Shown here one piece after another: positions 31,056 to 47,091 of a DNA stretch of 64,000 nt. Both the position numbers and the translations under genes were made by a program. Source of the stretch: Sphingobacterium hotanense (lineage in GTDB: Bacteria > Bacteroidota > Bacteroidia > Sphingobacteriales > Sphingobacteriaceae); NCBI RefSeq assembly GCF_008274825.1, contig NZ_CP030848.1, forward strand, positions 3,657,618 through 3,721,617, given 5' to 3'. Position 1 is the first letter of the stretch, and each line of letters starts with the position of its first letter. The notes under the pieces are model-generated. The model ran no database searches, was not told where the DNA came from, and was given only the letters and a program-made list of their open reading frames with translations.

Positions 31056-31071
31056 TCCATAGCCTATGCCA
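31056..31071 (-). promoter_or_regulatory. Sigma54-like promoter of tolC-regulator-kinase
   Basis: On the minus strand TGGCATAGGCTATGGA: the GG at the -24 place is followed 12 bp later by GG where GC is usual. The predicted start is about 11 bp before the tolC ATG. The proximal TGTTCG site is centred 62 bp upstream of the -24 GG. Confidence 0.55.
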
Positions 31072-31123
31072 ATTATACTAATTATTGATTATCAGTGATT
31101 TAAAACACCGAAAAAGAAAGGGA

Positions 31124-31161
31124 TGTTCGGAGACGAACAACAAAGTGTTCGGTAGTGGACA
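31124..31161. promoter_or_regulatory. Tandem activator sites upstream of tolC
   Basis: Two 16-bp sites: 31124-31139 TGTTCGGAGACGAACA (perfect) and 31146-31161 TGTTCGGTAGTGGACA (degenerate right half). Centres are 22 bp apart, about two helical turns. Confidence 0.75.
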
Positions 31162-31162
31162 A

Positions 31163-31727
31163 TTGGGATTAGACATTAGATATCAGATTTTAGATATTAG
31201 ACCGTTGTCTTGAACCAGGAAAGGAAGGGAACATTAGTCTTGAACCAGGAAAGGAAGGATGCAAGGATGGGCAGGATCGGGTCTAATGTCTCATATCTAA
31301 TATCTAGTGTCTAGTGTCTAGTCTGAACCAGGAAAAAAAGGATGCAAGGATGGGCAGGATCAGTGATCTGTTAAAGTTGGAGACGTTTAGTGAAACGTCT
31401 CTACGCGGTTCGTCATGATTACCGCCTATATATTTCAAAATTATATGGAAGCCAATTGGACGCCAATACGTAGAGACGTTTCACTAAACGTCTCCTAAAA
31501 TGTATATAACCCATACCATCTTTCGCCGCTATACCTGATCCTGCCAATCCTTGCATCCTTCCTTTCCTGGTTCGAAACAAAATATCCTTCCTTTCTAGTT
31601 TAAACCAAAGGTTCAAAACAAAATTCCCGTTCTAAACCAAAGTTTCAGACAAAAATCCCCTCACCCCACCACTCCCACTCGTCCAAAGTCTAACATCTAA
31701 AATCTCATATCTAACATCTAACATGGA
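31163..31727. repeat. Repeat island separating the tolC and hlyD control sites
   Basis: No gene is seen in this stretch. In order: family A array (31166-31200); truncated C copy (31210-31230); C copy (31240-31279); A array inverted (31280-31322); C copy (31323-31362); two family F hairpins in inverted orientation (31380-31401 and 31473-31494); C reverse copy (31536-31575); decayed C fragments (about 31580-31670); A array inverted (31682-31724). It pushes the tolC and hlyD activator sites about 600 bp apart. Confidence 0.75.
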
Positions 31728-31763
31728 CATAAGCGAACATCTACTGTTCGCTAACGAACAGTA
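31724..31763. promoter_or_regulatory. Tandem activator sites upstream of hlyD
   Basis: The perfect site TGTTCGCTAACGAACA lies at 31745-31760, extended to 9-bp arms at 31742-31763. A degenerate site TGGACATAAGCGAACA lies at 31724-31739. Centres are 21 bp apart. Confidence 0.78.
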
Positions 31764-31813
31764 GCCAAGTAGCCAAACACAAAATAACACTGATTTACAA
31801 TAGTTTACAACTT

Positions 31814-31829
31814 TGGCACAACCTTATCT
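31814..31829 (+). promoter_or_regulatory. Sigma54-like promoter of hlyD
   Basis: TGGCACAACCTTATCT: a perfect -24 TTGGCAC with a weak -12 (TATCT for TTGCW). The -24 GG is 63 bp from the centre of the proximal activator site and the ATG is at 31857. Confidence 0.5.
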
Positions 31830-31856
31830 ATGCATTTATCGTAAAGAATAAAATAA

Positions 31857-33110
31857 ATGGACAGACCAATTAAACAGAAGACATGGAATACGAAGCGGCT
31901 CTTAACGGTTGGCGGCGTGGTTGCCTTGGTTGGCTTGATCGGCGCGAGTTATTATTTCACGAGCGGCAATAGCAAACTCAATGTAGAAGCGGAGCGTATT
32001 GCTATCTTTGAAGTAAAAGAAGATACCTTTCAAGAGTTTATACCTATCAATGGAACCGTACTTCCTATCAGCAGTATTTATCTGGATGCTTCGGTTGGTG
32101 GTCGTGTGGAGGAGAAATATGTAGAAGATGGGGCGCATTTGAGAAAAGGAGACCCTATCATGCGTCTTTCGAATACGGATTTGGAGCTGAGCCTTATCAA
32201 TCAGGAAACGCAGGTTTTGAACCTCTTGACACAGGCTCAAATTGCGCAGACCAGTGCACAGCAGGCTACCATCAACAATCGTAATCAAATGGCGGATGTG
32301 GAACAAGCGCTGAAGGAAGCGGAGCGCGTTTATACCTTGAACAAAAAGTTGCTGGCGGAAAAGGCGATTGGTTCGCAGGAATATCAAAAGTCGCTGAATG
32401 AGTACAATTACCAGAAAGAACGTATCGGGTTAACGAATCAGATCGTGAGACAAGATGAGGTTTCGAATGCACAGAAACTAAATCAGGACCGCGAAACCTA
32501 TAAACGTACGCAGAGCGCTTTGCAGCTGATGCGCCAAAAAGTGGGGGATCTAATATTAAGAGCCCCTGTGGATGGGCAACTGACTTCCTTTGACGCCGAG
32601 ATCGGACAGAATAAAACGGCTGGCGAGCGTCTAGGACAGATTGATGTATTGACAGGTTTTAAAGTGCGTGCAGAAATCGATGAGCACTATATCAACCGCA
32701 TCTTTCCTGATTTGAAGGGGCAGTTCAGCATTGACGACAAGTCCTATGAGCTGCGCATTAAAAAAGTGTACACCCAGGTGAAAGATGGTCGCTTCTTGGT
32801 AGACATGGAGTTTATCGGAGCACGACCGGAGAGTATCCGTCGCGGACAGACCCTGCCAATACGTTTAGCATTGAGCGATAAGACCAAAGCGGTGTTACTC
32901 GCAAAGGGAGGCTTTAATCAACAAACGGGCGGAAACTGGATTTTTAAATTAGATAAATCAGGAAATACAGCTTATCGTACGGATATTCAATTAGGCCGTC
33001 AGAACCCGGAATATTATGAGGTATTAGGAGGCTTGAAACCCGGCGATAAAGTCGTTATTTCAAGCTATGAAACCTACGATAAGATTCAAGAATTGAGCAT
33101 AAAACAGTAG
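31857..33110 (+). CDS. HlyD/MacA-type periplasmic adaptor
   Basis: A 417-residue membrane fusion protein. One N-terminal membrane helix (about 14-33) is followed by a barrel-sandwich lipoyl half (IYLDASVGGRVEEKYVEDGAHLRKGDPIMRL), a long alpha-helical hairpin (about 110-215), the second lipoyl half (LILRAPVDGQLTSFDAEIGQNKTAGERLGQI) and a beta-barrel domain. It would join an inner-membrane ABC permease to TolC. It heads hlyD-ATPase-permease 1. Confidence 0.9.
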   Translation: MDRPIKQKTWNTKRLLTVGGVVALVGLIGASYYFTSGNSKLNVEAERIAIFEVKEDTFQEFIPINGTVLPISSIYLDASVGGRVEEKYVEDGAHLRKGDPIMRLSNTDLELSLINQETQVLNLLTQAQIAQTSAQQATINNRNQMADVEQALKEAERVYTLNKKLLAEKAIGSQEYQKSLNEYNYQKERIGLTNQIVRQDEVSNAQKLNQDRETYKRTQSALQLMRQKVGDLILRAPVDGQLTSFDAEIGQNKTAGERLGQIDVLTGFKVRAEIDEHYINRIFPDLKGQFSIDDKSYELRIKKVYTQVKDGRFLVDMEFIGARPESIRRGQTLPIRLALSDKTKAVLLAKGGFNQQTGGNWIFKLDKSGNTAYRTDIQLGRQNPEYYEVLGGLKPGDKVVISSYETYDKIQELSIKQ

Positions 33111-33197
33111 AAGTCATTGCGCCTGCTGCTTCACCCCCTAACCGAAGTAGTAGGTCGCAAATGATGAAAAGATAAACAAAGAAATTATAGATACCAT

Positions 33198-33875
33198 ATG
33201 ATCAAGATAACCAACCTACAGAAATTCTATCGCACCGAAGAGGTGGAGACTGTTGCGCTCAACGATGTTAATATACATGTGAAAGAGGGAGAATTTGTTG
33301 CCGTAATGGGCCCCTCTGGATGTGGGAAGTCGACCCTATTAAATATAGTTGGTCTGTTGGACGATTTAGACGAGGGCAGTTATCTATTCAACAGTATCGA
33401 AGTAGCAAAATTTAAGGAGAATAAGCGTTCGGATTTGCGCAAGCATAACATCGGCTTTGTCTTCCAGTCGTTTAACCTAATCGACGAGCTAACGGTTTTT
33501 GAAAACGTGGAACTTCCGCTTGTTTACACCAATGTGCCTGCTGCCGAACGTAAGAAACGCGTGGAGGAAGTGTTGGAAAAAGTGCAGATCATGCACCGCC
33601 GCAATCACTTTCCACAGCAGCTGTCTGGTGGTCAGCAACAACGTGTCGCCGTAGCGCGCGCCGTAGTCAACAACCCTAAATTGATCCTAGCCGACGAGCC
33701 CACAGGTAACTTAGATTCGAGCAACGGTAATGAAGTTATGCAATTACTAACCGAACTCAACGAAGCCGGAACAACCATCGTCATGGTAACACACTCTGAA
33801 TACGACGCCAAGTTCGCCGACCGTGTAATCAGAATGCTCGACGGACAGGTGATATTGGAAGATGTAAGAAATTAA
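33198..33875 (+). CDS. MacB/LolD-type ABC transporter ATPase (1)
   Basis: A 225-residue ATP-binding subunit with Walker A GPSGCGKST (38-46), Q-loop in VFQSFNL, signature LSGGQQQRVAVARA and Walker B LILADEPTGNLDS. All motifs are canonical. It would drive the FtsX-type permeases of this locus. It is followed by a 460-bp repeat island rather than directly by permease 1. Confidence 0.93.
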   Translation: MIKITNLQKFYRTEEVETVALNDVNIHVKEGEFVAVMGPSGCGKSTLLNIVGLLDDLDEGSYLFNSIEVAKFKENKRSDLRKHNIGFVFQSFNLIDELTVFENVELPLVYTNVPAAERKKRVEEVLEKVQIMHRRNHFPQQLSGGQQQRVAVARAVVNNPKLILADEPTGNLDSSNGNEVMQLLTELNEAGTTIVMVTHSEYDAKFADRVIRMLDGQVILEDVRN

Positions 33876-34338
33876 TTTATAGATATGAGATGCTAGAAAT
33901 TAGATATAAGATGTTAGACATTAGATATAAGATATGAGATGTTAGACATTAGATATAAGATTTTAGACATTAGAATGGCGTTTGAATCAGGATAGATGGG
34001 CAGTTGTCTCGAAAGAAAGAAAGGAACATTTGTCTTGAACCAGGAAAGGAAGGATTTTAGGATTAACAGGATCCTCCTTATCGTTTTTTTCCTTCCTTTC
34101 CTGGTTCAAAACACAACTCTAATATCTATTATCTACTGTCTAATATCTAGTCTGAAAGGAAGGATTTTAGGATTGACAGGATCCTGCATATCGTTTTTTT
34201 CCTTCCTTTCCTGGTTCAAGACACAACTCTAATATCTATTATCTACTGTCTAATATCTAGTCTGAAAGAAAGGCTCCTAATCGGCGTCCTACTCTAAAAT
34301 CTAATGTCTAAAATCTAAAAAACACTAAATACAACCAC
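33876..34338. repeat. Repeat island between ATPase 1 and permease 1
   Basis: Family A units run from about 33880 to 33975. A full C palindrome lies at 34035-34108 (centre GGATCC 34069-34074), then an inverted A array, a second C palindrome (about 34152-34220, left arm truncated), another inverted A array, a decayed D hairpin (about 34265-34290) and a last inverted A array just before the permease start. The block 34045-34154 is repeated at 34155-34264 (110-bp period). No gene is seen. Confidence 0.8.
34045..34264. repeat. 110-bp tandem duplication inside the repeat island
   Basis: Two copies of about 110 bp (34045-34154, 34155-34264) each hold a C element and an inverted A array. They differ at only a few bases, so the duplication is recent. 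Confidence 0.75.
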
Positions 34339-36687
34339 ATGTTTAAAATAGCCTTTCGCAACCTCAAGAAGAATAAGGGATTCACGGCGATCAATATTAT
34401 TGGTTTAGCTATTGGTATGGCGGCCGCGATACTGATTATATTATGGATTCGGAGTGAAGTGACTTTTGATCGTCAGTACAGCAATCTCGACCGGACCTAT
34501 GTTGTCGGGAATAAAGCAATCTGGGGCGATAAGATTCAGGTATGGTTCTGGACCCCTCGTGTGATGGCAAGAACGCTGGAAACGGAATTTCCGGAGATCG
34601 AGCATGCTGTGCGCGTTGAAGGTGGTGGCAATGATTTACTTTCTGTCGGAGAGAACAAGTTGAATAAGGAAACTGGCATTTTTGCAGATGAGCACTTTTT
34701 TGACATCTTTGATTTCGAGGTTCTCGCTGGTGATACGAAAACTGCGCTCTCCAATGTGAATAGTATCGTCTTGACGGAATCATTAGCGAAGAAATTATTC
34801 AATTCGACAGATGTTGTCGGGAAATTCGTTCAACGAAATAATGAGGAGCAGTTCGCTGTATCGGCTGTATTGAAAGATCTGCCAGCCAATAGCACCTACA
34901 ATAGAACGAGTTATCTGCTTCCGATGAAGTATCATGATAGCAAAAACCCCGGCGATACACAGTGGAACAACAATACATTGCAGACCTACATCTTATTGAA
35001 AGAAGGAGCAAACGTTGAATTGCTGAGCAAGAACATCAAAGGACTTGTACAAAGACACACCGAAACAAACGCTGACAATCTAATCAAGCCTTTGGCCGAC
35101 ATGCATTTGTATGATAAATACGAGAACGGTGTGGTCGCTGGTGGTAGAATTGATACGGTACGTGTTTTTCTTGTGATCGCTTGCTTTATCCTGCTTATCG
35201 CCTGTATCAACTTTATGAATCTGAGTACAGCGCAGAGCGAAAAAAGAGCGAAGGAAGTTGGTATCCGAAAAGTAGTTGGTGCGGGAAAATCATCCTTGAT
35301 CAAACAGTTTCTATCGGAGTCCATTTTGCTGGCTATTTTTGCGGGACTTGCCGCGCTCCTAATTGTGATCGTCGCGCTTCCGAGTTATTCCAAATTAGTA
35401 GATCGGGCACTAACATTGCCATACGATAGCATTGCTTTTTGGATTGCGTTTATGGCATTCACCATCTTTACGGGTTTAGTGGCCGGCAGCTATCCCGCTT
35501 TCTTTTTATCCTCGTTCAAACCAATCCGTGTGCTTAAAGGCAAGTTTGTATTCAAGGTGAATAGCTTTAGCACAAGAAAGGTCTTAGTCGTGAGTCAGTT
35601 TATTATCGCTATTGTATTAATCGTCAGTACCATCACTATCCGCAAGCAAATACAACATGCGCAAGACCGTGAGGTTGGTTACAACAAAGAACGTTTGATT
35701 TTCTTGTATGAAAATGGGGATGTTGAGAAGAATTTCAAATCGATTAAACAGGAGTTATTGGAACAAGGTATCGCTAGCAGCGTGACCCGCACTATGTCGC
35801 CAATTACCCTCCGATGGAGCAACAGCAACGGTTTTGAGTGGGCAGGGAAATCCAAAGACAATACCGTGATCTTTAATAGAACAGCAGCCGACGATAAGTT
35901 GATAGAAACAACAGGTTTAGAGTTAGTGAAGGGTCGTGATTTTGACCTCAGCAAATTCCCTACAGACTCGGCAGCGGCGATAATCAATGAATCTGCGGCA
36001 AAGGAAATTGGGTTTGCGGATCCTATCGGACAGATTATCAAGGACGGCAGTCAGTCTTACCAAATCATCGGTGTGATCAAAGACTTTATACAAGAGTCGC
36101 CATATGATCCTATAGCACCGCTGATCATCGAGGGTGCCCATGGCTATCTAGCGACCACACATATCAAGTTCCAACCGAATATTCATACGCGTGAGGCCCT
36201 AGACAAAACGGAAGCAATTCTAAAGAAATACAATCCGCTATACCCTTTCGAGTACACCTTCGTTGATGAAGACTATGCGAAGAAGTTTAACGAGTCAGAA
36301 AAAACCGGACAACTAGCTTCTCTATTCGCCGGGCTAACCATCTTTATCTCTTGTTTGGGACTATTCGGACTTTCGGCGTTCATGGCAGAGAACAGAACGA
36401 AAGAAATCGGTATCCGCAAAGTATTGGGTGCATCTGTATTTTCAGTTACCCGAATGCTTTCCAAAGAGTTTGTACTGCTTGTAATCATCGCTTGCATCGT
36501 CGCATTCCCATTGGCTTACTGGGCAATGAACAGCTACCTGAGCACTTATGCCTACCGCATATCGGTAAGCTGGGAGATATTTTTGATAACAGCAATAACG
36601 GCTATTTTGATTGCCATATTTACGGTAAGCTATCAGTCGATAAAAGCCGCAATAGCAAATCCAGTGAATAGTTTGAGGGATGAGTAA
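34339..36687 (+). CDS. FtsX/MacB-type ABC permease (1)
   Basis: A 782-residue permease. A first membrane helix (about 20-40) and a periplasmic MacB core domain are followed by a three-helix FtsX block (from about 275, containing KRAKEVGIRKVVGA). A further helix, a second periplasmic domain and a second FtsX block (from about 670, RTKEIGIRKVLGASV) come next, and the end is NPVNSLRDE. Such long fused permeases are common in Bacteroidota; their substrates are mostly unknown. It is most like permease 3 in this locus (shared YPAFFLSSF and similar tails). Confidence 0.88.
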   Translation: MFKIAFRNLKKNKGFTAINIIGLAIGMAAAILIILWIRSEVTFDRQYSNLDRTYVVGNKAIWGDKIQVWFWTPRVMARTLETEFPEIEHAVRVEGGGNDLLSVGENKLNKETGIFADEHFFDIFDFEVLAGDTKTALSNVNSIVLTESLAKKLFNSTDVVGKFVQRNNEEQFAVSAVLKDLPANSTYNRTSYLLPMKYHDSKNPGDTQWNNNTLQTYILLKEGANVELLSKNIKGLVQRHTETNADNLIKPLADMHLYDKYENGVVAGGRIDTVRVFLVIACFILLIACINFMNLSTAQSEKRAKEVGIRKVVGAGKSSLIKQFLSESILLAIFAGLAALLIVIVALPSYSKLVDRALTLPYDSIAFWIAFMAFTIFTGLVAGSYPAFFLSSFKPIRVLKGKFVFKVNSFSTRKVLVVSQFIIAIVLIVSTITIRKQIQHAQDREVGYNKERLIFLYENGDVEKNFKSIKQELLEQGIASSVTRTMSPITLRWSNSNGFEWAGKSKDNTVIFNRTAADDKLIETTGLELVKGRDFDLSKFPTDSAAAIINESAAKEIGFADPIGQIIKDGSQSYQIIGVIKDFIQESPYDPIAPLIIEGAHGYLATTHIKFQPNIHTREALDKTEAILKKYNPLYPFEYTFVDEDYAKKFNESEKTGQLASLFAGLTIFISCLGLFGLSAFMAENRTKEIGIRKVLGASVFSVTRMLSKEFVLLVIIACIVAFPLAYWAMNSYLSTYAYRISVSWEIFLITAITAILIAIFTVSYQSIKAAIANPVNSLRDE

Positions 36688-37018
36688 GATTAGTAGTTAG
36701 TATTTAATAGTTAGTATTTAGACCTATGCTGGCTTGGTATAGCAGCACATATTCTTGAACCAGGAAAAAAAGGATTATAGAATTGGCAGGATCGGGTCTT
36801 GATACTAAATACTATTTTGAATCAGGAAATAGATTATTGGCTTGAAATAAAGGAAAAAGTGTTGTCTTTGAACCAGGAAAAAAAGGATTATAGGATTTGC
36901 AGGATCCTGTATATCTTAAAATCCTTCCTTTCCTGGTTCAGACAAACGATATAAAAAATATATAAATACCAGCAAAACAAGACGCCATAGGTCTAAATAC
37001 TAACTACTAAATACTAAC
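36688..37018. repeat. Repeat island between permease 1 and the insertion sequence
   Basis: A family B array follows the stop (36690-36726), then a C half-element (about 36753-36795), a partial inverted B fragment (about 36797-36812), a full C palindrome (36869-36940) and the left part of an inverted B array (from about 36989). That array is cut by the insertion sequence. Confidence 0.75.
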
Positions 37019-37023
37019 TACTA
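37019..37023 (+). repeat. Left target-site duplication TACTA
   Basis: TACTA directly precedes the left inverted repeat; the same five bases follow the right one at 38057-38061. Both lie inside a family B array, so part of the match could be chance. Confidence 0.6.
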
Positions 37024-38056
37024 ATGCGAATTAAGGGTTGAAATATATTGGAAAAAGCTTCTTAAAAAGAGGGGTGAAAACTTGCATAAAAGCCTGATTA
37101 TCAGTATATTTATAATGTTCCTTACGCATTATTAAACAACATGATCAATCAGGCCAAGGCTCTAAAATTAATAAAATTATACCAGTATGTTTGTGATAAA
37201 TATGACAGTGAACTGCAATATTACTGTCAGCGATTTTCAAACAATAACAAACCTGACTTTACTGATCAGGAGGTTTTGACCATCTATTTATTCAGTGTGC
37301 ACGAGGAACAGCGGCTAAGGATCAAGCAGATCCATAAATTCGCCTCGGATTATCTGATGGATTGGTTTCCCAAGCTAACTTCATACGTAGCATTCAACAC
37401 CCGTATCAACCGCCTTTTTGATGTTTTGAGATCTCTTTGTCAGTCAGTTATAGAGGACTTTACACCAGAGGAGTGCTCCAGAGAATTTTCCCTACTGGAC
37501 TCTATGCCCATCATAACCTGCAGTGGGACTAGAAGGGCAAAGGTAGCTCTGGAGATAACGGATAAAAGCTTCTGCTCAACGAAGAGGCTTTGGTATTTTG
37601 GATTAAAGCTTCATGCGCTCAACAGCTATAACAAATCCACGCTGCCTCGTCCGGAAAGCATTGTAATAAGCAAGGCATCTGAAAGTGACCTGAACATATT
37701 TAAGGAGAATTGGGCATCCATCGCAGGTAGGACGTTCTTTGGTGACAAGATATACCGTGACGCCCCGTTCTTCGAGTGGTTTTATAAAGAAAAAAAATCA
37801 ATTATGTATACTCCGATAAGGGAAACCCAAGGAAAACCAGATTGTTTAAAAAACAGGGATCGTGCTTATAATGACCTGTTTTCAAGAGCAGTATCTAAGG
37901 TAAGACAACCAATCGAATCCTTTTTTAATTGGATAAATGAAAAAACACAGATACAAAACGCAAGTAAGGTCAGATCTACCAAAGGACTATTAGTACATGT
38001 GTTCGGTAAATTAACAGCCTGTTTCATAAAGCCTATTTTCAACCCTTAATTCGCAT
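37024..38056 (+). mobile_element. Insertion sequence, probably IS982 family
   Basis: A 1033-bp element bounded by perfect 20-bp inverted repeats (ATGCGAATTAAGGGTTGAAA at the left, its inverse at the right end 38037-38056). It encodes one intact transposase. It sits in a B array between two permease genes and may reduce read-through into permease 2. Confidence 0.88.
37141..38049 (+). CDS. DDE transposase, IS982-like
   Basis: A 302-residue transposase. The catalytic pattern fits a DDE enzyme: the first Asp in FSLLDSMPI, the second in GDKIYRD, and the Glu in RQPIESFFNWI; YFGLKLHAL is typical of IS982 relatives. The frame is intact and reaches almost to the right inverted repeat, so the element may be active. 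Family assignment is by motif layout and could be a neighbouring IS group. Confidence 0.82.
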   Translation: MINQAKALKLIKLYQYVCDKYDSELQYYCQRFSNNNKPDFTDQEVLTIYLFSVHEEQRLRIKQIHKFASDYLMDWFPKLTSYVAFNTRINRLFDVLRSLCQSVIEDFTPEECSREFSLLDSMPIITCSGTRRAKVALEITDKSFCSTKRLWYFGLKLHALNSYNKSTLPRPESIVISKASESDLNIFKENWASIAGRTFFGDKIYRDAPFFEWFYKEKKSIMYTPIRETQGKPDCLKNRDRAYNDLFSRAVSKVRQPIESFFNWINEKTQIQNASKVRSTKGLLVHVFGKLTACFIKPIFNP

Positions 38057-38087: not shown

Positions 38088-40538
38088 ATGTTTAACAGTC
38101 TACGCCACTTAAAAAGAAATAAGCTATTCAGCTTTTTGAATATCCTGGGATTAACTATCGGGATTAGCTCCTGCTGGTTGATTTACCGATTTGTAAGTTA
38201 TGAGCTCAGTTATGAGCAGGGCATTCCAGATAAAGAGAACATTTATCGAGTATTATCGAATTTTAAGCGCGATGGCCAGGATGAGCTATTTGGTGGCTTG
38301 TCGCGACCGATCTACTTCCATATGAAGCAGGAGATGGATGGTCTTGAAAATGTTGTTCCGAGCTTCCGGATGTTTGTTGCAAAGATCGATATACCTGCTA
38401 TCGCCGGTCAGGACGCAAAGCAGGAAGAGCCTGATTATTTGGAGACTGCAGTGATTAATACGGTTCCTAGTTATTTTGATATGCTACCCTATAAGTGGCT
38501 CGCGGGAGATAAGAGGACCGCGTTGAACGACCCGTTTCAACTCGTGCTGACGGAGAAACGCGCAAAGTATTACTTTCCAACCTTAAGCCCGCAGGAGATT
38601 GTAGGAAAAACGATTGTATATAATGATTCGTTGAAGAAAACAGTTTCCGGCATTGTAGAGAATCTACCATTCCCGTCTGAATTTATTGGTCAAGAATTTC
38701 TCCTACTGAAGGAACGAGCGGAAGATAAAAGACTAGCCAGTTGGACAAACAGCAACGGTGCGGACAAGGTTTATATTTTAGTCAAGGATAAAGCCGCCGC
38801 TGATAAAGCTCTTACGGAAATACAGGCTACCGTCAAAAGTAAATGGGAAGAATTTAAAGCAGAGACCAAGCCGACTTATGAATATACGAGAAGCATTAAC
38901 TTCATGCCGATCAAAGACTCGCATTTTGCGTCGCACATGAACGAGCGCGACGCTGATAAAACCAGCTTACAGGTGATCTATGGTTTAATTGGTGTTGGAA
39001 TTTTCTTGCTATTGTTGGCTTGCATCAATTACATCAACCTGACCACCGCACAGTTACCGCAACGTTATAAAGAAATTGGGATTCGCAAAACGCTTGGTGG
39101 ATCTAACAAATCGCTAGTACTGCAGATGATGACAGAAACAGCAATCATCGTTGGATTAGCGACCGTCTTATCGGCTTTCGTTGTCCAGATTGCCATGCTG
39201 TTCCTTGGCGACTTACTATCCGAAGGTGCCAAGACCAATTCCAATCCGCTACTCTTTATAGTCTTCATCGCTTTTGTATTATTAACGACTAGTGTATTGG
39301 CAGGATTTTATCCCTCGTGGATCATCAGCAAGGTCAATGCTGTGGATATCTTTAGAAATAAAGGAACAGTTGCCGTCGGTCAGAACAGAATAAACCTTCG
39401 TAAGGCACTTATCGTTTTCCAATTTATCATTGCGCAGATATTTATTGTTGGAGCATTGATTGTTGGGCAGCAATTAAAATATCTGGTGGAAAAAGATATG
39501 GGTTTCAACAAAGATGCCGTGATTCTTTCTGAAATACCTTACAAGCTTTTCGAAGACCCTAATTTCGAAACGAAGAAGATAACCCTCAGCAATGAACTAC
39601 GTCAGATTCCAGGTGTTGAGGCTGTAACGATGGGGACTGCTCCATTATCGCCGGACTATAGTTCTTCTCACATGAACTACTATCCGAAGGGACAGTTGGA
39701 GCCTATCTCACAAAACATATTCACTAAAGTAATCGATCAGGAGTACTTCTCCTTTTACGATTTGAAGCTCACTGCTGGTGCTCCCCTTTTACCATCTGAC
39801 ACAACCAACGGCTATATTATCAATGAAACCGCAGCTAGAGGATATGGATTTAAGAATCCACAAGATGCGATAGGCGAAATAATTGGACAGAAAGGATATG
39901 AGCAGCGAATTGTAGGCGTTATGAAAGATTTCCATACCAGAGACTTTTATTCAAACATTGAGCCTTTAGCACTTCTCCACTCAAAGGAACAGTTAGGGGA
40001 TTATGGTATCCGACTAAGCTCAACGAATAGAAAAGAATGGCCGCAAATCATCGAACAAGTGAAGTCTACCTGGGCAAAGTTCTTCCCGGAAGATACATTT
40101 ACATATAAGTTCTATGACGAGTCGATTCTCGCGATGTACAAAAAGGAACAAAACCTATACAAACTGACGAACATCAGCACGGGCATCGCGATTATCATCA
40201 GCTGCCTGGGTCTATTCGGACTTGCAACTATAACCGCATTTCAACGCAGCAAAGAAATCGGCATCCGTAAAGTATTGGGTGCAACCGTGTCGGGAATTGT
40301 CGGCATGCTTTCCAAAGACTTCGTGAAGATGGTTATCCTTGCAATCCTCATCGCAAGCCCTATCATCTGGTGGGCGTGTAACAAGTGGTTGCAAGACTTC
40401 GTTTACCGCATCGAGCTATCATGGATTCCGTTTGTTTTGGGCGGATTATTCGCCTTAGTGGCAGCCCTATTAACCGTGAGCTATCAGGCTATCAAGGCGG
40501 CAAAGACTAATCCTGTGGATAGTTTGAGGGATGAGTAA
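38088..40538 (+). CDS. FtsX/MacB-type ABC permease (2)
   Basis: An 816-residue permease with the same plan as permease 1: N-terminal helix, periplasmic domain, FtsX block (YKEIGIRKTLGGS), second periplasmic domain and second FtsX block (SKEIGIRKVLGATV), ending NPVDSLRDE. It is the most divergent at the N-terminus (FNSLRHLKRNKLFSFLNILG). Its natural promoter is likely upstream of hlyD, but an insertion sequence now lies in between. It ends in B and A arrays and a terminator. Confidence 0.88.
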   Translation: MFNSLRHLKRNKLFSFLNILGLTIGISSCWLIYRFVSYELSYEQGIPDKENIYRVLSNFKRDGQDELFGGLSRPIYFHMKQEMDGLENVVPSFRMFVAKIDIPAIAGQDAKQEEPDYLETAVINTVPSYFDMLPYKWLAGDKRTALNDPFQLVLTEKRAKYYFPTLSPQEIVGKTIVYNDSLKKTVSGIVENLPFPSEFIGQEFLLLKERAEDKRLASWTNSNGADKVYILVKDKAAADKALTEIQATVKSKWEEFKAETKPTYEYTRSINFMPIKDSHFASHMNERDADKTSLQVIYGLIGVGIFLLLLACINYINLTTAQLPQRYKEIGIRKTLGGSNKSLVLQMMTETAIIVGLATVLSAFVVQIAMLFLGDLLSEGAKTNSNPLLFIVFIAFVLLTTSVLAGFYPSWIISKVNAVDIFRNKGTVAVGQNRINLRKALIVFQFIIAQIFIVGALIVGQQLKYLVEKDMGFNKDAVILSEIPYKLFEDPNFETKKITLSNELRQIPGVEAVTMGTAPLSPDYSSSHMNYYPKGQLEPISQNIFTKVIDQEYFSFYDLKLTAGAPLLPSDTTNGYIINETAARGYGFKNPQDAIGEIIGQKGYEQRIVGVMKDFHTRDFYSNIEPLALLHSKEQLGDYGIRLSSTNRKEWPQIIEQVKSTWAKFFPEDTFTYKFYDESILAMYKKEQNLYKLTNISTGIAIIISCLGLFGLATITAFQRSKEIGIRKVLGATVSGIVGMLSKDFVKMVILAILIASPIIWWACNKWLQDFVYRIELSWIPFVLGGLFALVAALLTVSYQAIKAAKTNPVDSLRDE

Positions 40539-40542: not shown

Positions 40543-40624
40543 AGTAGTTAGTATTTAGTAGTTAGTATTTAGACCTATGGCGGATATGAGATTTGGATAT
40601 AAGATTTTAGACATTAGATTTTAG
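40543..40624 (+). repeat. Family B and A arrays after permease 2
   Basis: B units (40543-40577, ending TTAGACCTATGG) are followed by A units (about 40582-40624), both TTAG-oriented relative to permease 2. Confidence 0.8.
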
Positions 40625-40629
40625 AGCAG

Positions 40630-40650
40630 GGCGCCGACTAGGCGCCTTTT
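40630..40650 (+). terminator. Family D GGCGCC terminator of permease 2
   Basis: GGCGCC, GACTA, GGCGCC, TTTT. It closely resembles the terminator after the barrel gene. Confidence 0.85.
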
Positions 40651-41228
40651 GCTGTTTGAGGAGTTTTCTGAACCAGGAAAGGAAGGATGCAAGGATGAAC
40701 AGGATCTGGATACACCTACTATTACTGAATAACATTTTACACCTCATTCTTAACCATATTATAGCCAATTCCGAGCGCTTATGATTGGGGTTTGAATTGG
40801 GTTTACATTGGGTTTGAAATGGGTGTAAGTAGACTGACTTACCTTTGGGTTACTAAAAAGGGAACAATAAAATATAACATAGGTATTTAAAGGTTAAACC
40901 TGATCCTGTCAATCCTTAAATCCTTCCTTTCCTGGTTCAGACAAAATATCCTGACAATCCCTAGATACTTTCGTTCCTAGTTCAAAGACAAAATATCCTA
41001 ACAATCCTTCCTTTCTTCAAAAACAAACTTTCCTTTCTTGTTTAAAACAAATGTTCAGGATGTGTGGAGTGACGGGATTGAATTGTCTTGAACCAGGAAA
41101 AAAAGGATGAAATGATTATCAGGATTGGAAAGAAAGGTAGACGATTGATCCTGCCAATCCTTAAATCCTTCCTTTCTTGATTCAGAAAAATTTTCCTTTC
41201 TAAACCAAAGAAAAAAACAACGCATCCC
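40651..41228. repeat. Repeat island between permease 2 and the lipoprotein gene
   Basis: C half-element (40669-40707), family E segment (40772-40830), C reverse copy (about 40901-40941), decayed C fragments (about 40950-41050), then a C forward/reverse pair (41088-41127 and 41146-41184). ORFs here are repeat by-products; no gene is seen. Confidence 0.75.
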
Positions 41229-41252
41229 AAAAAAAGCGCCTAATCGGCGCCC
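41229..41252 (-). terminator. Family D terminator of the lipoprotein gene
   Basis: On the minus strand GGGCGCC, GATTA, GGCGC, then seven T. Confidence 0.8.
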
Positions 41253-41258
41253 TGCTCT

Positions 41259-41290
41259 AAAATCCTAATATCTTATATCTAATATCTAAA
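41259..41290 (-). repeat. Family A array after the lipoprotein stop
   Basis: On the minus strand TTAG/TAGA heptads begin directly after the stop, before the GGCGCC terminator. Confidence 0.75.
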
Positions 41291-41704
41291 CTATTGTTTC
41301 GGTCCCTGAAAGCTAAACTGAACAGCATCCGCTGCTAGGGGCTGGCTACTTATAGATAACTGAGATGTCGCCGTGTAATAAATAAAGATTCCTGCAGGAT
41401 CTTGAGGATCTTCGCTCATAATATCGCCGTCCAAACTTGCTACTTTGATTACTCGGGTGTAAGCTCCTTCCGGAAACGGCATGGTAATTTTCATTTCCGA
41501 ACCATTTTGTTTACTCACCGTTACGATGGCGTTGGCAGTCGTATTAAATGCTTTTCCGGGAAGTCTGGATTTTAGCGTCCCTTTGAAGGAGCCTGTCGCC
41601 ACATCAATCGACGGACCTGCTTCTTCATCTTTACTGCAAGAAGAATGTGCTGTTGTGCTGACTGCTAACAAGGCTAGGACAGCAAGTTTAATTGTTGATT
41701 TCAT
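41291..41704 (-). CDS. Small putative lipoprotein of the efflux locus
   Basis: A 137-residue protein with a lipoprotein leader (Cys at residue 23 in AHSSC) and a mature beta-rich domain with no recognisable catalytic motif. It diverges from permease 3, and the two share one pair of activator sites; a sigma54-like element precedes it. It therefore looks like part of the same regulon, perhaps a periplasmic or surface accessory. No family was recognised. Confidence 0.72.
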   Translation of the reverse strand: MKSTIKLAVLALLAVSTTAHSSCSKDEEAGPSIDVATGSFKGTLKSRLPGKAFNTTANAIVTVSKQNGSEMKITMPFPEGAYTRVIKVASLDGDIMSEDPQDPAGIFIYYTATSQLSISSQPLAADAVQFSFQGPKQ

Positions 41705-41737
41705 AGGGTTTTATTATAGTTGTGTATCAAGATAGGA

Positions 41738-41753
41738 TACAATTATCTTGCCA
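41738..41753 (-). promoter_or_regulatory. Sigma54-like promoter of the lipoprotein gene
   Basis: On the minus strand TGGCAAGATAATTGTA: -24 TGGCA, -12 TTGTA (one change from TTGCA). It is 97 bp from the centre of the nearer activator site, about three helical turns further than elsewhere. Confidence 0.5.
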
Positions 41754-41840
41754 TTTCTTCGATATGCTTCTAAGAGAGAATAGCTTGTTAAGACGCTGAT
41801 ATATAAGTTCTAAACATGTAAATTGAAAACAAATAATGAT

Positions 41841-41877
41841 TGTTCGCATACGCACAAATACTGTTCGAATTCGAACA
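41841..41877. promoter_or_regulatory. Tandem activator sites shared by lipoprotein and permease 3
   Basis: TGTTCGCATACGCACA (41841-41856) and the perfect TGTTCGAATTCGAACA (41862-41877); centres are 21 bp apart. Confidence 0.8.
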
Positions 41878-41930
41878 ATAAACAAATGAGATTAACACAC
41901 AAACAACTGAATTTCAGAACATTAAAACAA

Positions 41931-41946
41931 TGGCATCCTAGTAGCT
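41931..41946 (+). promoter_or_regulatory. Sigma54-like promoter of permease 3
   Basis: TGGCATCCTAGTAGCT has GG at -24 and GC at -12 with correct spacing. The -24 GG is 63 bp from the centre of the perfect activator site. Confidence 0.65.
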
Positions 41947-41974
41947 ATCCAATAGTTGTCGAATAAAATAGCCC

Positions 41975-42013
41975 CTAAGGGTCTAAATACTAAGTACTAA
42001 ATACTAAATACTT
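41975..42013 (+). repeat. Family B array before permease 3
   Basis: GGTCTAAATACTAAGTACT-type heptads in CTAA orientation fill the leader between the predicted transcription start and the ATG. Confidence 0.75.
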
Positions 42014-42018
42014 CATCG

Positions 42019-44403
42019 ATGATTCGTAATTACTTTAATATCCTAGCTCGCAGTCTTGCAAAGAACAAAGTGTTTTCCTTTATCAATATTATCGGATTGT
42101 CGATCGGTATGGCTGCAGCTATCCTAATTACGCTCTGGATTCAGCGAGAATACAGTATGGATAAGTTTCATGAGAAATCTGATCGTCTATATGTAGTCTA
42201 TAATCGTGATACGGATGGAATCGAAACATGGGTAAACAATAATACCCAGAAAATATTGACGACGACTTTACAATCGGATTATCCTGAGGTTGAGGGCGCA
42301 ACTATATATAATGGGAGCTCGAATCTCTTCCGAATTGGCGACAAGAAAATAAAAGGTTATGGTGCAGTCGTAGACAGTGTGTTTCTAAATATGTTCAGCT
42401 TTCCTCTACTGGAAGGCGATGCGAATACAGCGTTGGCAGACCCTAGCCATATCGTGTTGACAGCCTCCTTTGTGAAAACCTTATTTGGGAATGAGAATCC
42501 GGTTGGAAAGACATTAACTGTCGACTCTGCATCGCAGTTTACAGTGACCGCTGTGCTCCAAGATCTACCAAACAATACCAAGTTTGGTTTCAAATACTTG
42601 ATCCCTCGTTCTTATGCCAAACGCATAAATCCAGACCAAGATGGATGGGGAGCATTTTCGACAACAAGCTATGTATTATTGAAAGAAGGAGCCTCGCAGA
42701 CCGCTTTAGAAAACAAGATTAAGAACCTGGCAAAGGATAACACCAAAAGTGCTGGCCTTCCGATTACGGCAGAGCCCTTTCTACATCCAATAGACAAGAA
42801 GTACTTGTATAATAAAGATGTGAATGGGCAGCTCGTCGCTGGCGAGATTAGTAAGATTCGATTGTTTACCGCCATTGCCGGCTTCATACTGCTAATTGCA
42901 TGCATCAACTTTATGAACTTGAGTACAGCTAAGAGTGAAAAGCGTGCGAAAGAAGTGGGGATCCGCAAGGTAGTAGGCGTGACGAAAATGGGATTGATAC
43001 TACAGTTTATCTTCGAGAGTGTGTTCCTAAGCTTCGTGTCCTTCCTCATTGCACTGGGACTAGTTTATTTGGCCCTTCCACATTATAGCCAATTAGTTGG
43101 CGGGAAACTGATTGTACCAATACAAGAGCCAGGGTTTTGGTTGCTTAGTATTGCTTTCATTTTGTTTACCGGACTTTTGGCCGGTAGCTATCCAGCCTTC
43201 TTCCTATCCTCCTTTAATCCTGTTAAAGTATTGAAAGGTACATTTAAGTCAGCAAGAAGTACTGTCTCTGCGCGGAAAGTCTTGGTTGTTATCCAATTTA
43301 CCTTTGCTATCACATTGATTATTTCTACGATTATCATTTACAATCAAATACGCTATGCACTAGACCGCGATGCGGGATATGACAGGGAGCAGTTAATTGC
43401 TGTACCGATGGAAGGGAAAATACGTTCGAATTATGATTTGATAAAAAATGAAATATTAAATACTGGAGCAGTTAGCTCGATGACCAAGAGTCTGAGCCCT
43501 ATAACACAAAAATGGAGCGATCAATGGGGGCTAGAATGGGATGGCAGCACGAAACAGGACGAGCAGACCGTATTCGTAAAATTTGGAACGGATGCCGACT
43601 TTGCGAAGACGATGGGCTTGAAGATTGTCGAAGGTCGCGATATTGACGTCAATAAATTCCCAACGGATACTAGTGCTATATTACTGAATGAGGCGGCCAT
43701 TAAGGCGATGCGTATAAAGGACCCTATCGGTAAACTGATCAATCATGTGGGTTATAAAGAAGCGAACTATAAAATCGTCGGCATTGTAAACGACTTTGTG
43801 TTTGGATCGCCTTTTGTCGATAAGATTGAACCTATGATGATCTGTGGACCGCGTGCGTATTATGCGACGACCATACATATGAAACTGTCGGATAAATTTG
43901 AGACGAAAGAAAGTCTGTCGAAGATTGAACAGGTCTTGAAGAAGTTAAATCCGGATTATGAGTTTGTTTATGATTTCACCGATGAAGACTATGCTTACAA
44001 AGTTGCCTCTGCCGAACGCACGGGCAAATTAGTAACCCTCTTTGCAGGATTAACTATCTTGATTTCTTGTCTCGGGTTGTTTGGCCTTGCAGCGTATATG
44101 GCGGAGAACAGAACGAAAGAGATCGGAATCCGCAAGGTGTTGGGAGCCTCGGTCCTGCAAGTGACGAGCTTATTATCAAAAGAGTTTATCGTGTTGATCT
44201 TTATCGCATTCCTAATAGCTTCTCCAATTGCTTGGTATGCCATGAAAAACTGGTTATCTGATTACAGCTATAGAACCGAGATTTCTTGGTGGGTATTTGC
44301 AATAACGGGCGGATTGGCAGTCATTATTACCATGCTGACCATTAGCTGGCAGTCCATTAAAGCTGCAATAGCAAATCCAGTGAGCAGCATGAGAGATGAA
44401 TAA
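42019..44403 (+). CDS. FtsX/MacB-type ABC permease (3)
   Basis: A 794-residue permease: N-terminal helix (FINIIGLSIGMAAAILITLWI), periplasmic domain, FtsX block (KRAKEVGIRKVVGVT), YPAFFLSSF, second periplasmic domain, second FtsX block (RTKEIGIRKVLGASV), end NPVSSMRDE. It is the closest paralogue of permease 1. It heads a probable transcript with permease 4, from its own sigma54-like promoter. Confidence 0.88.
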   Translation: MIRNYFNILARSLAKNKVFSFINIIGLSIGMAAAILITLWIQREYSMDKFHEKSDRLYVVYNRDTDGIETWVNNNTQKILTTTLQSDYPEVEGATIYNGSSNLFRIGDKKIKGYGAVVDSVFLNMFSFPLLEGDANTALADPSHIVLTASFVKTLFGNENPVGKTLTVDSASQFTVTAVLQDLPNNTKFGFKYLIPRSYAKRINPDQDGWGAFSTTSYVLLKEGASQTALENKIKNLAKDNTKSAGLPITAEPFLHPIDKKYLYNKDVNGQLVAGEISKIRLFTAIAGFILLIACINFMNLSTAKSEKRAKEVGIRKVVGVTKMGLILQFIFESVFLSFVSFLIALGLVYLALPHYSQLVGGKLIVPIQEPGFWLLSIAFILFTGLLAGSYPAFFLSSFNPVKVLKGTFKSARSTVSARKVLVVIQFTFAITLIISTIIIYNQIRYALDRDAGYDREQLIAVPMEGKIRSNYDLIKNEILNTGAVSSMTKSLSPITQKWSDQWGLEWDGSTKQDEQTVFVKFGTDADFAKTMGLKIVEGRDIDVNKFPTDTSAILLNEAAIKAMRIKDPIGKLINHVGYKEANYKIVGIVNDFVFGSPFVDKIEPMMICGPRAYYATTIHMKLSDKFETKESLSKIEQVLKKLNPDYEFVYDFTDEDYAYKVASAERTGKLVTLFAGLTILISCLGLFGLAAYMAENRTKEIGIRKVLGASVLQVTSLLSKEFIVLIFIAFLIASPIAWYAMKNWLSDYSYRTEISWWVFAITGGLAVIITMLTISWQSIKAAIANPVSSMRDE

Positions 44404-44405
44404 TG

Positions 44406-44527
44406 TTTTAGATATGAGATATTAGATTTTAGACATTAGACCAGCACTGAATATTAAGCAGGTTAATAATGAATAAGTTTCATCAACTATAGGTCTTAAT
44501 ACTAACTACTAAATACTAAATACTACA
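44406..44527 (+). repeat. Arrays between permeases 3 and 4
   Basis: A family A array in TTAG orientation follows the stop (44406-44441). A spacer and then a family B array in CTAA orientation (about 44491-44526) end just before the next ATG. Confidence 0.75.
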
Positions 44528-44529
44528 AA

Positions 44530-46926
44530 ATGTTAAAAATAGCCTTTCGCACTATATTAAAAACAAAGTCTTTGACTTTTGTTCAGATCTTCGGGTTCTC
44601 TATCGCGATAGCGACAGCTACCATTCTATTCTTAACGGCCATGTTTGAGCTATCCTTTGACAAATTCCATAAGGATATTGACCGAATTGGTGTTGTCTAC
44701 ATAGAGACCAATACAGCTAATGGTACTAACTATAACACCAGTGTTGCTGCGCCATTAGCACCATTAATGAAAAAAGAGCTTCCTAATGTAGAAGAAGTCA
44801 GCAGGCTTTTAAACGGCAATATCTTATTGCGAAATGGGGACAAAGAACTCCGAAGCAATAATAAATATGTTGACCAGTCTTTCTTTTCGATGTTTGATTT
44901 CGAACTGATCGCTGGGAATAAAACAGCACTTGATAATCTTGATGGACTTGTCATTGACGAAAACACCGCAACAGCGCTGTTTGGAACGACCGATGTTGTC
45001 GGCAAAACTGTCGAATTTAATCAAACTGGAACCTGGGAAAACAATGTTGTCACCGCCGTGACAAAATCTGTTCCAGCGAATTCTAGCATACAATTTAACA
45101 GTTTAACGCGCTTTGAGAAATCACCGCAATACCAAGAGCGGATGAATGAGTGGACCCACAAAGACCATACGTTATTAGTGAAAGTAAAGTCTTCCAAATT
45201 GGATGATCGGAAATTTGCAGACGCTACGAGATCCTTTGCTCAAGTACATTACAACGATGAGATTACCAAGCTGAAAAGAGATGGCGCAAAGCCTGATGAA
45301 CATGGCGCCTATATCAATATTCATTTGCTCCCGCTGTCGGATTTGCATTTAACGAGTGTTGAATATGGGTCGATAGAAAAAACGCCATTCCCATGGATAC
45401 TCCTTTTGATCTCCGGACTCATCCTGTTTATCGCGGGTTCTAACTTTGTCAATCTGTCTTTAGCGAACTCCTTAAGTCGCATTAAAGAAATTGGTACAAG
45501 AAAAACAATTGGAGGCACTACCTTCCAACTTTTCAAACAACTGTGGTTAGAATCGTTTATCATTTGTGTAATCGGATTGATTCTAGGAATTCTATTCGCC
45601 ACGCTACTATTACCGGAATACAATGCGACGCTAGGTTACCACTTTAAGATAGCGCAGCTCTTTGACCCTGTGAATATCGCTGTATTTCTTACTGCTTTCC
45701 TTATTTTGACATTGATTACCGGAGGCTATCCTGCCCTCCGTATGGCTCGCGCCAATATCATCCAAAGTCTCAAAGGCACGGGAAAGATAAAATCAACTCC
45801 AATGCAGAATAGTTTGACGGTATTGCAATTCGCTATCGCTATCATCCTATGTATTGCGACCATTGTAATCAGCTTTCAATTGCACTACCTTACGAACCGA
45901 CCTTTGGGCTTTAACAAGAGCGAGGTAGTCAGCATTCCTATTGGCAATAGTATTGATGGTCAACAAGCATTAGAACGCATGCGTATTGAACTAGCTGCTC
46001 ATCCTTGGGCAAAAAGTGTCAGCGGATCCGATATTAACCTGGGTCGAGGACGGGACAATAGTACATCGACGAGCAGATTCGGATTCGATCATGAAGGCAA
46101 AGAGATTATCACGAACTTCCTAAGGATAGATTATGATTATCTGAAAACCTTGGATATCAAACTCATTGCCGGTAGAGATTTTAACAAAAGCTTTGGAACT
46201 GATACCAATGCTGTGCTTATCAACAAAGAAATGGCATTAGCTGTTGGCGGAGAAGATGCAATATTAGGGAAACCATTAGGAATGGATGGATCGCCGACAG
46301 TAATCGGCATTGTCGATAACTTCAACTTTCAAGACTTAAAACAACAAGTCGGCCCCTTGACCATGTCTGTCAATCCCAATATATTCCCTGTGCAATATAT
46401 CTTTGTTCGCGTGGAGACTAATGATCTCGCCAAAACACTGGAAGATGTTGAGTCCATCTGGAAAAAAGTCAATCCACGCTCCAATATTGACGCAAGTTAT
46501 CTCGACGAGAATACGCAAAATCTATATAAGAACGACCGACGTTTTGGGAAAATAGTGATTACTGGAGCATCGGTAGCTATCGTTATCTCTTGCCTTGGTT
46601 TATTCGCTTTGACCGTGCTTCTGATCAATGGAAAGATCAAAGAGATCGGAATACGGAAAGTATTAGGATCCTCGATCAGCAATATCATTCTATTGCTGTC
46701 CAAAAACTTTATCAAGCTGATCAGTATCGCCTTCCTAATCGCCGCACCTATCGCTTGGATAGCGATGAACAAATGGTTGCAAAGCTTCGCCTTCCGTATA
46801 GAAATCGAATGGTGGATGCCTGCCCTAGCAGGGCTAATCGCACTAGCTTTCGCTATGCTTACCATCGCTTGGCAAACCTATAAAGCGGCGCGCGTCAATC
46901 CGGTGGATAGCTTGAGGGATGAATAA
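44530..46926 (+). CDS. FtsX/MacB-type ABC permease (4)
   Basis: A 798-residue permease with the same two-half layout; the first FtsX block reads LSRIKEIGTRKTIGGT and the second GKIKEIGIRKVLGSSI, ending NPVDSLRDE. No activator site or sigma54-like element precedes it, so it is likely transcribed from the permease 3 promoter. Confidence 0.87.
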   Translation: MLKIAFRTILKTKSLTFVQIFGFSIAIATATILFLTAMFELSFDKFHKDIDRIGVVYIETNTANGTNYNTSVAAPLAPLMKKELPNVEEVSRLLNGNILLRNGDKELRSNNKYVDQSFFSMFDFELIAGNKTALDNLDGLVIDENTATALFGTTDVVGKTVEFNQTGTWENNVVTAVTKSVPANSSIQFNSLTRFEKSPQYQERMNEWTHKDHTLLVKVKSSKLDDRKFADATRSFAQVHYNDEITKLKRDGAKPDEHGAYINIHLLPLSDLHLTSVEYGSIEKTPFPWILLLISGLILFIAGSNFVNLSLANSLSRIKEIGTRKTIGGTTFQLFKQLWLESFIICVIGLILGILFATLLLPEYNATLGYHFKIAQLFDPVNIAVFLTAFLILTLITGGYPALRMARANIIQSLKGTGKIKSTPMQNSLTVLQFAIAIILCIATIVISFQLHYLTNRPLGFNKSEVVSIPIGNSIDGQQALERMRIELAAHPWAKSVSGSDINLGRGRDNSTSTSRFGFDHEGKEIITNFLRIDYDYLKTLDIKLIAGRDFNKSFGTDTNAVLINKEMALAVGGEDAILGKPLGMDGSPTVIGIVDNFNFQDLKQQVGPLTMSVNPNIFPVQYIFVRVETNDLAKTLEDVESIWKKVNPRSNIDASYLDENTQNLYKNDRRFGKIVITGASVAIVISCLGLFALTVLLINGKIKEIGIRKVLGSSISNIILLLSKNFIKLISIAFLIAAPIAWIAMNKWLQSFAFRIEIEWWMPALAGLIALAFAMLTIAWQTYKAARVNPVDSLRDE

Positions 46927-46965
46927 TTTAGACTTTAGATCTAAGACATTAGACATTAGAGCATA
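46927..46965 (+). repeat. Family A array after permease 4
   Basis: TTAGACTTTAGATCTAAGA-type heptads start within a few bases of the TAA stop. Confidence 0.75.
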
Positions 46966-46985
46966 GTGAAACAGCAAGTATCTAG

Positions 46986-47022
46986 TGTTCGAAATTGGAC
47001 TGAGACTGTTCGAAAATGAACG
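46986..47022. promoter_or_regulatory. Tandem activator sites upstream of permease 5
   Basis: TGTTCGAAATTGGACT (46986-47001) and TGTTCGAAAATGAACG (47007-47022); left halves are intact, right halves degenerate; centres 21 bp apart. Confidence 0.7.
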
Positions 47023-47075
47023 AACAAAGGGAACAAAATAAAACAAAAACACTATAAACCAACACATTACAATAT

Positions 47076-47091
47076 TGGCAAAGCCATTGCA
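47076..47091 (+). promoter_or_regulatory. Sigma54 promoter of permease 5
   Basis: TGGCAAAGCCATTGCA has -24 TTGGCA and -12 TTGCA with standard spacing; the best match to consensus in the locus. The -24 GG is 63 bp from the centre of the proximal activator site. Confidence 0.75.

Follow-up and report, generated by a model that had tools for sequence, protein, structure and literature searches.

Paired palindromic sites and a predicted sigma-54 regulon at a tripartite export locus of Sphingobacterium hotanense

Introduction

A stretch of 64,000 nucleotides of the Sphingobacterium hotanense genome (assembly GCF_008274825.1, contig NZ_CP030848.1, positions 3,657,618 to 3,721,617 of the forward strand; herein "the window", numbered from its first letter) contains genes for a TolC-type outer membrane factor (tolC), an NtrC-type response regulator and a sensor histidine kinase, divergent from genes for an HlyD-type periplasmic adaptor (hlyD), an ATP-binding cassette (ABC) ATPase and a series of permeases. 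This arrangement raises the question of how expression of the exporter is controlled; i.e., whether the regulator acts on the genes around it, through which DNA sites, and from which kind of promoter. An initial annotation, made from the sequence alone, had proposed that the regulator binds paired palindromic sites and, with its kinase, controls its own operon and four other promoters of the same machine. Our analysis lends support to this proposal through the co-occurrence of sites and regulator, the fixed distance between sites and promoter elements, and the persistence of both when targets and regulator lie apart, such that a sigma-54 regulon under this regulator very probably controls the export pump and several of its permeases.

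Results

Site pairs and promoter elements

The four pairs of TGTTCG-N4-CGAACA sites listed in the initial annotation (31124/31146, 31724/31745, 41841/41862 and 46986/47007) are all present, with measured centre-to-centre distances of 22, 21, 21 and 21 bp, in agreement with the 21 or 22 bp claimed. They constitute the predicted activator site pairs of tolC (31124..31161, minus strand), hlyD (31724..31760, plus strand), permease 3 (41841..41877, plus strand) and permease 5 (46986..47022, plus strand). Across the genome, a single contig of 4.49 Mb, the pair pattern (≤3 mismatches to TGTYCGNNNNYGRACA twice) occurs in three places at 21 bp and in one at 22 bp, all within the window, with the reversed control returning nothing at either spacing; pairs of equal quality outside the window, which would have spoken against the proposal, were thus not found at this threshold. 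All three exact copies of the site in the genome likewise fall inside the window. Single sites were dropped as evidence since they are near chance genome-wide (146 at ≤2 mismatches versus 135 in the reversed control); in the window, at ≤3 mismatches, there are 37 against 26.1 expected, a count reached in 1 of 100 shuffles.

Beyond each pair, a TGGCA begins 60 or 61 bp past the proximal centre, at 31071 (minus strand), 31814, 41931 and 47076 (plus strand), the 62-63 bp given previously differing through counting convention. The -24 GG element of a sigma-54 promoter is thus found at a fixed distance from the site pair, and the predicted -24/-12 elements read TGGCATAGGCTATGGA for tolC (31056..31071, minus strand), TGGCACAACCTTATCT for hlyD (31814..31829, plus strand), TGGCATCCTAGTAGCT for permease 3 (41931..41946, plus strand) and TGGCAAAGCCATTGCA for permease 5 (47076..47091, plus strand). 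For permeases 1, 2 and 4, the window scan gave no upstream pair scoring like these four. The next-best score in the window belongs to a fifth, weaker pair absent from the initial list (49588/49609; 49588..49624, plus strand), situated before the second ATPase gene in a copy of the permease-5 upstream region (79% identity over 133 alignment columns). This pair appears decayed, with no TGGCA at the expected place after it, and affords a glimpse of how the promoter module gets copied.

Regulator, kinase and sigma-54

A sigma-54 regulon presupposes sigma-54 itself, and the genome encodes one rpoN. The regulator (28349..29704, minus strand), the putative binder of the site pairs, contains a receiver, a sigma-54 AAA+ domain and a Fis-type helix-turn-helix (HTH), in the order typical of NtrC-type activators. 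Its nearest named relatives are Sphingobacterium proteins, the best being from S. humi at 86% identity. The HTH end has the sequence LGLTRAALYRR throughout the 28 Sphingobacterium loci, with similar sequences elsewhere, which fits a site that changes slowly. Four strong sigma-54 activators are encoded in the genome (four further matches are weak and read as other AAA+ proteins), with the other three possessing different recognition helices and GSFT-type loops. By Pfam and hydropathy, the kinase (27027..28346, minus strand) has a short N-terminal membrane part followed by PAS and HATPase_c domains; a sizeable periplasmic part was not seen by simple hydropathy. Among 59 kinases treated in the same way, one hydrophobic segment was predicted in 29, two in 29 and none in 1. 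Such a layout resembles that of kinases which sense within the membrane or via a partner transporter.

Co-occurrence of pairs and regulator

The initial annotation raised the question of whether site pairs cluster at orthologues of the regulator, and the pairs do track the orthologue in two genome samples. In the first, comprising 40 genomes of the genus including our own (orthologue cut-off E ≤1e-128), the regulator is present in 32 and absent from 8, the G038 orthologue being broken. All 32 regulator-positive genomes contain 21-bp pairs and all 32 contain 22-bp pairs; among the 8 regulator-negative genomes, 7 have neither, and the remaining one (G020) has a single 3-mismatch match on one strand. 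The reversed control was empty at 22 bp; at 21 bp it gave 29 matches per strand in one genome (G006) and strays in four others. In the second sample, of 151 genomes of the family (cut-off 1e-100; 21-bp pairs only; the best 11 candidates per genome scored), regulator and pairs occur together in 60 genomes, the regulator alone in 21, pairs alone in 2, and neither in 68.

Conservation of spacing across loci

Spacing rules can be read from the 61 loci encoding relatives of the regulator, taken together with the window. A scan allowing ≤5 mismatches and spacings of 18 to 36 returned 71 pairs, of which 40 are spaced at 21 bp, 24 at 22 bp and 7 at all other spacings combined, versus 1 pair for the reversed pattern over the same set. 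A 21- or 22-bp pair is present in 36 of the 61 loci, and in 27 of the 28 titled Sphingobacterium. Of 60 distinct pairs, 56 are accompanied on one side or both by TGGCA, 58-64 bp past the proximal centre; when all 76 TGGCA occurrences at 0-165 on both sides of the pairs are tallied, 40 fall at offset 60, 19 at 61, 5 at 62 and 12 elsewhere. The consensus of 79 distinct sites from Sphingobacterium loci is TGT[T/C]C[G/A]-N4-[C/T]G[A/G]ACA.

Outside the genus, Olivibacter and Hufsiella display the same layout upstream of hlyD, as do Chitinophagaceae and Flavobacteriaceae with one half-site reading TGTATCA, the latter result having been obtained by eye and being weaker than that for Sphingobacterium. 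A general tandem-palindrome search of the interval between hlyD and the regulator in 20 loci from other families gave no convincing result because, as suggested by a reading of 15 intergenic loci and by the TGGCA alignment, one half-site reads TGTATCA in several loci and the palindromes are thus imperfect. A position weight matrix scan with a score floor was set aside as overly stringent for certain Pedobacter and Hufsiella loci. With alignment on TGGCA, the 48 loci whose hlyD has the expected orientation (13 of the 61 lack one) score as follows: 32 at 12/12, 4 at 11 (one of which uses TGGTA in place of TGGCA), 9 at 9, 2 at 8 and 1 unmatched; the alignment picked the best TGGCA and centre per locus, and scores of 9 of 12 are not significant on their own.

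Targets apart from the regulator

In two draft genomes (G066 and G075), the regulator and hlyD lie on different contigs, with the hlyD pair kept and TGGCA at 60 and 62; within the 5.6 kb upstream of hlyD in G066, neither tolC nor the regulator was found. In a third genome (G100), with a regulator 97% identical to ours, one contig carries tolC-regulator at 3.13 Mb and, 2.4 Mb away in the sequence record, hlyD together with permeases 3 and 5 (0.69-0.70 Mb); all four pairs are kept. At permease 3 of this genome the spacer has acquired several indels, yet both sites, TGGCATCCTAGT and the distance between them are retained. Such a split locus is hard to explain by mere neighbourhood conservation.

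A broader view comes from 23 stretches read around pairs that were picked, from partial pair lists, for their distance from the regulator or their proximity to a paralogue. Of the 24 pairs therein, 18 have TGGCA at 60-63, and the -12 boxes of these 18 elements, in standard register, are TTGC in 10, TTGA, TTGG or TTGT in 7, and TGGC in 1. A permease homologue (FtsX/MacB) adjoins the pair in 10 of the 23 stretches and a small exported protein or fragment stands beside it in 9; when three of the small exported proteins were compared with Pfam PF12893, two (L180 and L198) scored above the cut-off and one (L184) below. In other genomes of the genus, NTF2-like genes for small exported proteins are preceded by near-identical pairs with -24/-12 elements (L180, L181, L182, L183 and L185), the L181 copy of the gene being frameshifted. 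In L186 and L187 the distal pairs are not followed by TGGCA, and a DUF2807 gene and a beta-lactamase-fold gene, respectively, are located nearby.

These distal pairs bear on the possibility that the pairs are nothing other than conserved local DNA, such as hairpins, repeats or leftovers of duplication. The many short repeats in the intergenic regions of the window are of a kind with this explanation, as is the duplication that links the upstream regions of permease 5 and the second ATPase. Set against it are the recurrence of sites outside the locus, ahead of genes from different families, the preservation of site spacing across genera, and the survival of sites within flanks diverged by indels; we thus consider it extremely improbable that the pairs are not sites for the regulator.

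Evidence weighed against the regulon

Several observations weigh against a regulon of this design, beginning with the samples themselves. Fisher values for the co-occurrence overstate independence, as the sampled genomes are related, and the degenerate consensus was settled only after the loci had been viewed. No strict 21/22-bp pair is present in 25 of the 61 loci, and 21 of the 81 regulator-positive family genomes have no 21-bp pair of this consensus, as would be expected if the site had drifted there. At the level of targets, 6 of the 24 distal pairs have no TGGCA, and the permease-5 element of the split-locus genome (G100) has become CGGCA-N6-TTGTA, with CGGCA now at -24. In another relative (G012; regulator 90% identical), the gene order from hlyD to the second ATPase is the same, but only the tolC and hlyD pairs occur and those of permeases 3 and 5 are absent. 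The predicted permease-3 and permease-5 promoters are thus lineage-specific, and since permease promoters come and go in this way, the core of the regulon would be tolC and hlyD, with permeases being recruited to it.

Two family genomes harbour pairs but no orthologue of the regulator: one (G054) has 13 forward pairs and, even when every candidate was scored, no regulator and no counterpart of this HlyD, and the other (G082) has 2 pairs and an HlyD gene with a pair and TGGCA at 61. Assembly gaps could possibly account for both, as could a paralogue that binds the same site. By extension of the latter, a different protein, either an NtrC-type paralogue or an unrelated repressor that acts as a dimer, would bind the pairs, with their linkage to our regulator being incidental. 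Paralogues approximately 40-52% identical do exist in other genomes, and one of them, a 44%-identical regulator in G033, has a perfect 22-bp pair at its gene starts (L199, 2501-2538). This paralogue is divergent from its own HlyD and ATPase, and TGGCA at 60 is absent, perhaps reflecting another binding geometry. No such paralogue was found in our genome, however, where the three other strong activators differ in recognition helices and loops; moreover, the presence or absence of pairs follows the orthologue within the genus, and a distance of 60-62 bp to TGGCA suits an activator rather than a repressor. It is thus quite improbable that another protein occupies the pairs in place of the regulator.

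The remaining counter-evidence concerns the -12 box and the activator loop. The -12 boxes had been described as acceptable or good; in standard register, this holds for permease 5 (TTGC) and permease 3 (TAGC), both of which have GC, and fails for tolC (ATGG) and hlyD (TATC), which are both off-consensus, hlyD the more so. The same class of box as in tolC recurs in the tolC promoters of relatives, where GC is present in 1 of 27 and the G is kept in 27 of 27; at the hlyD promoters of relatives, GC and the G are each present in 0 of 32, and 21 of these 32 elements have a TTG one base too near the -24. Treatment of the hlyD box as a plain TTGC variant was rejected, since a register check places it out of register; the poor boxes also tell against hlyD having a plain sigma-54 promoter. 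The regulator itself has GAFTDA where the canonical loop is GAFTGA, and across 61 orthologues the loop reads GAFTDA in 53, GAYTDA in 4, GAFTGA in 3 and GSFTGS in 1. This loop reportedly senses promoter DNA conformation, and its altered form may conceivably be linked to the poor -12 boxes of the hub promoters (tolC and hlyD). In the accessible part of one published survey, GAFTGA is called invariant in sigma-54 activators and the list of activators is filtered on it (PMC12316311); our regulator would therefore drop out of that list.

Taken at face value, a loop of this kind in 57 of 61 orthologues and the missing -12 GC in 32 of 32 hlyD and 26 of 27 tolC promoters could mean that the regulator, once bound to the pairs, works wholly or partly through a form of RNA polymerase without sigma-54. 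The fixed position of TGGCA in 56 of 60 distinct pairs and the standard-register TTGC of permease 5 and of 10 among the 18 distal targets run counter to this, and we judge it highly improbable. The out-of-register hlyD box nonetheless led us to lower our confidence in the sigma-54 regulon a little and to raise that in a non-sigma-54 mode of action by a similarly small step.

Organization of the locus

On the minus strand, tolC (29721..31034; Pfam) is followed by the regulator and kinase genes, and since these genes nearly touch, tolC, regulator and kinase probably form one operon of which tolC is the first gene. On the plus strand lie hlyD (31857..33110), whose product is DarC-like by Pfam and NCBIfam, a DarD/LolD/MacB-like ABC ATPase gene (33198..33875), five permease genes of duplicated FtsX/MacB_PCD type, and a second, DarD-like ABC ATPase gene (49698..50363) 3' of permease 5. 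The permease genes are permease 1 (34339..36687; MacB_PCD and FtsX, duplicated), permease 2 (38088..40538), permease 3 (42019..44403; ADOP/DarB-like), permease 4 (44530..46926) and permease 5 (47154..49538; Pfam). Permease 4 is probably cotranscribed with permease 3.

Divergent from permease 3 is a gene for a small putative lipoprotein (41291..41704, minus strand) with no Pfam match. The initial annotation placed a fifth TGGCA for this gene at 97 bp, and one does start at 41753 (minus strand), at offset 95 from the pair, as part of the possible -24/-12 element TGGCAAGATAATTGTA (41738..41753, minus strand). A counterpart is kept in the closest relative (G100), with TGGCA at 93 bp and TTGC at -12, pointing to a possible lipoprotein promoter in these two genomes; a search of the 61 loci, none of which extends further than 10 kb from the regulator, found no lipoprotein homologue among frames of at least 100 amino acids at E ≤1e-8.

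The spacer between tolC and hlyD contains short direct and inverted repeats at 31190-31560 (e.g., GTAGAGACGTTTCACTAAACGTCTC and its partner arm), and the match of the split-locus genome to the window ends within this spacer, between both site pairs. A transposase gene (DDE_Tnp_1) is found between permeases 1 and 2 (37141-38049), with no homologue there in G012. Near the kinase end of the locus is a gene of the Omp85 superfamily (25448-26623). BamA, the target of darobactin, is an Omp85 protein; the presence of such a gene beside a darobactin-exporter-like locus may be a coincidence.

Discussion

From the arrangement described above, we infer binding, phosphorylation, activation and substrate in the following manner. 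The kinase would phosphorylate the NtrC-type regulator, as is usual for these families, and dimers of the regulator would bind via their Fis-type HTH to two tandem palindromes, TGTYCG-N4-YGRACA, spaced 21-22 bp apart. As this spacing equals two helical turns, the two dimers would be located on one face of the DNA. Promoter opening would then follow from contact between the AAA+ ring and RNA polymerase carrying sigma-54, at a TGGCA -24 element located 60-62 bp away from the proximal site centre. The core targets would be the divergent tolC-regulator-kinase operon, thus affording positive autoregulation, and the genes for HlyD, the ATPase and the permeases. Single permeases, whether inside the cluster or at other genomic positions, would each have acquired a copy of the control region; in one case, a duplication is visible. 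The products would assemble into a TolC/HlyD/ABC tripartite exporter akin to MacAB-TolC and the darobactin exporter. As to signal and cargo, envelope-damaging compounds are our guess.

A more tentative reading, which we regard as somewhat doubtful, extends across the Bacteroidota. Therein, activators with a GA[FY]TDA loop would serve hub promoters that depart from the -12 consensus by design, with tolC lacking the C and hlyD having its TTG one base too near the -24, and a single TolC/HlyD/ATPase hub would be served by interchangeable permeases, spread over the genome, that join the regulon by way of the paired-site module.

For a predicted sigma-54 regulon, our study names a DNA site, a candidate activator and a list of targets; in this phylum, activators and their sites appear little described. 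The split loci amount to natural experiments in which regulator and targets have been separated, and lists of activators filtered on GAFTGA may be missing a branch. Among open-licence papers, screened through partial listings by title and abstract opening, no description of this site or regulator was found, and a term search of PMC3162934 gave no matches. The predicted regulon is of a known kind, and its candidate activator is a variant. To judge from the accessible part of the literature, the association between sigma-54 and FtsX-type permeases has already been published, while the activator, site, spacing rule, split loci and recruited targets appear to be new; the statistical link reported in PMC12316311 can thus be turned into a testable circuit.

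Among well-studied systems, the closest in design are regulons of the ZraSR/NtrBC type, which likewise pair a kinase with a regulator of receiver-AAA+-Fis HTH architecture in an autoregulated operon. In these regulons, paired palindromes lie upstream of -24/-12 promoters. The NCBIfam models for ZraR and AtoC match our regulator below cut-off, and its relatives in the Protein Data Bank are NtrC-family proteins and ZraR. The system described herein differs in its GAFTDA loop, in a kinase for which no sizeable periplasmic domain was seen, and in having a tripartite exporter as its predicted target; to our knowledge, the site sequence also differs from those of NtrC and ZraR.

With regard to sigma-54 in the phylum, promoters have been predicted in silico for FtsX-type ABC permeases (COG0577) in Bacteroidia (PMC12316311), i.e., for the same permease class as here, also in Bacteroidota; the accessible part of that study assigns them neither an activator nor a site for one. 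In Flavobacterium psychrophilum, the -24/-12 promoters of a sigma-54 regulon have been mapped and include those of envelope-stress genes (PMC9723704). Unlike in our locus, the table of selected sigma-54-motif promoters in the accessible part of that paper contains no ABC permease, and activator sites are not assigned there.

With regard to the exporter, the adaptor, ATPase and permease match the DarC, DarD and DarB models of the darobactin exporter, all below their NCBIfam cut-offs (171.9 bits against 450 for DarC, 301.8 against 375 for DarD and 136.4 against 700 for DarB), with the permease also matching the ADOP family below cut-off. Among solved structures, the permease scores best with MacB and the adaptor with MacA, in line with MacAB-TolC. 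In contrast to MacAB-TolC, the ATPase is separate from the permease, with no MacB-type fusion, and the permeases are duplicated; in contrast to both MacAB-TolC and DarBCD, several permeases are present here per adaptor.

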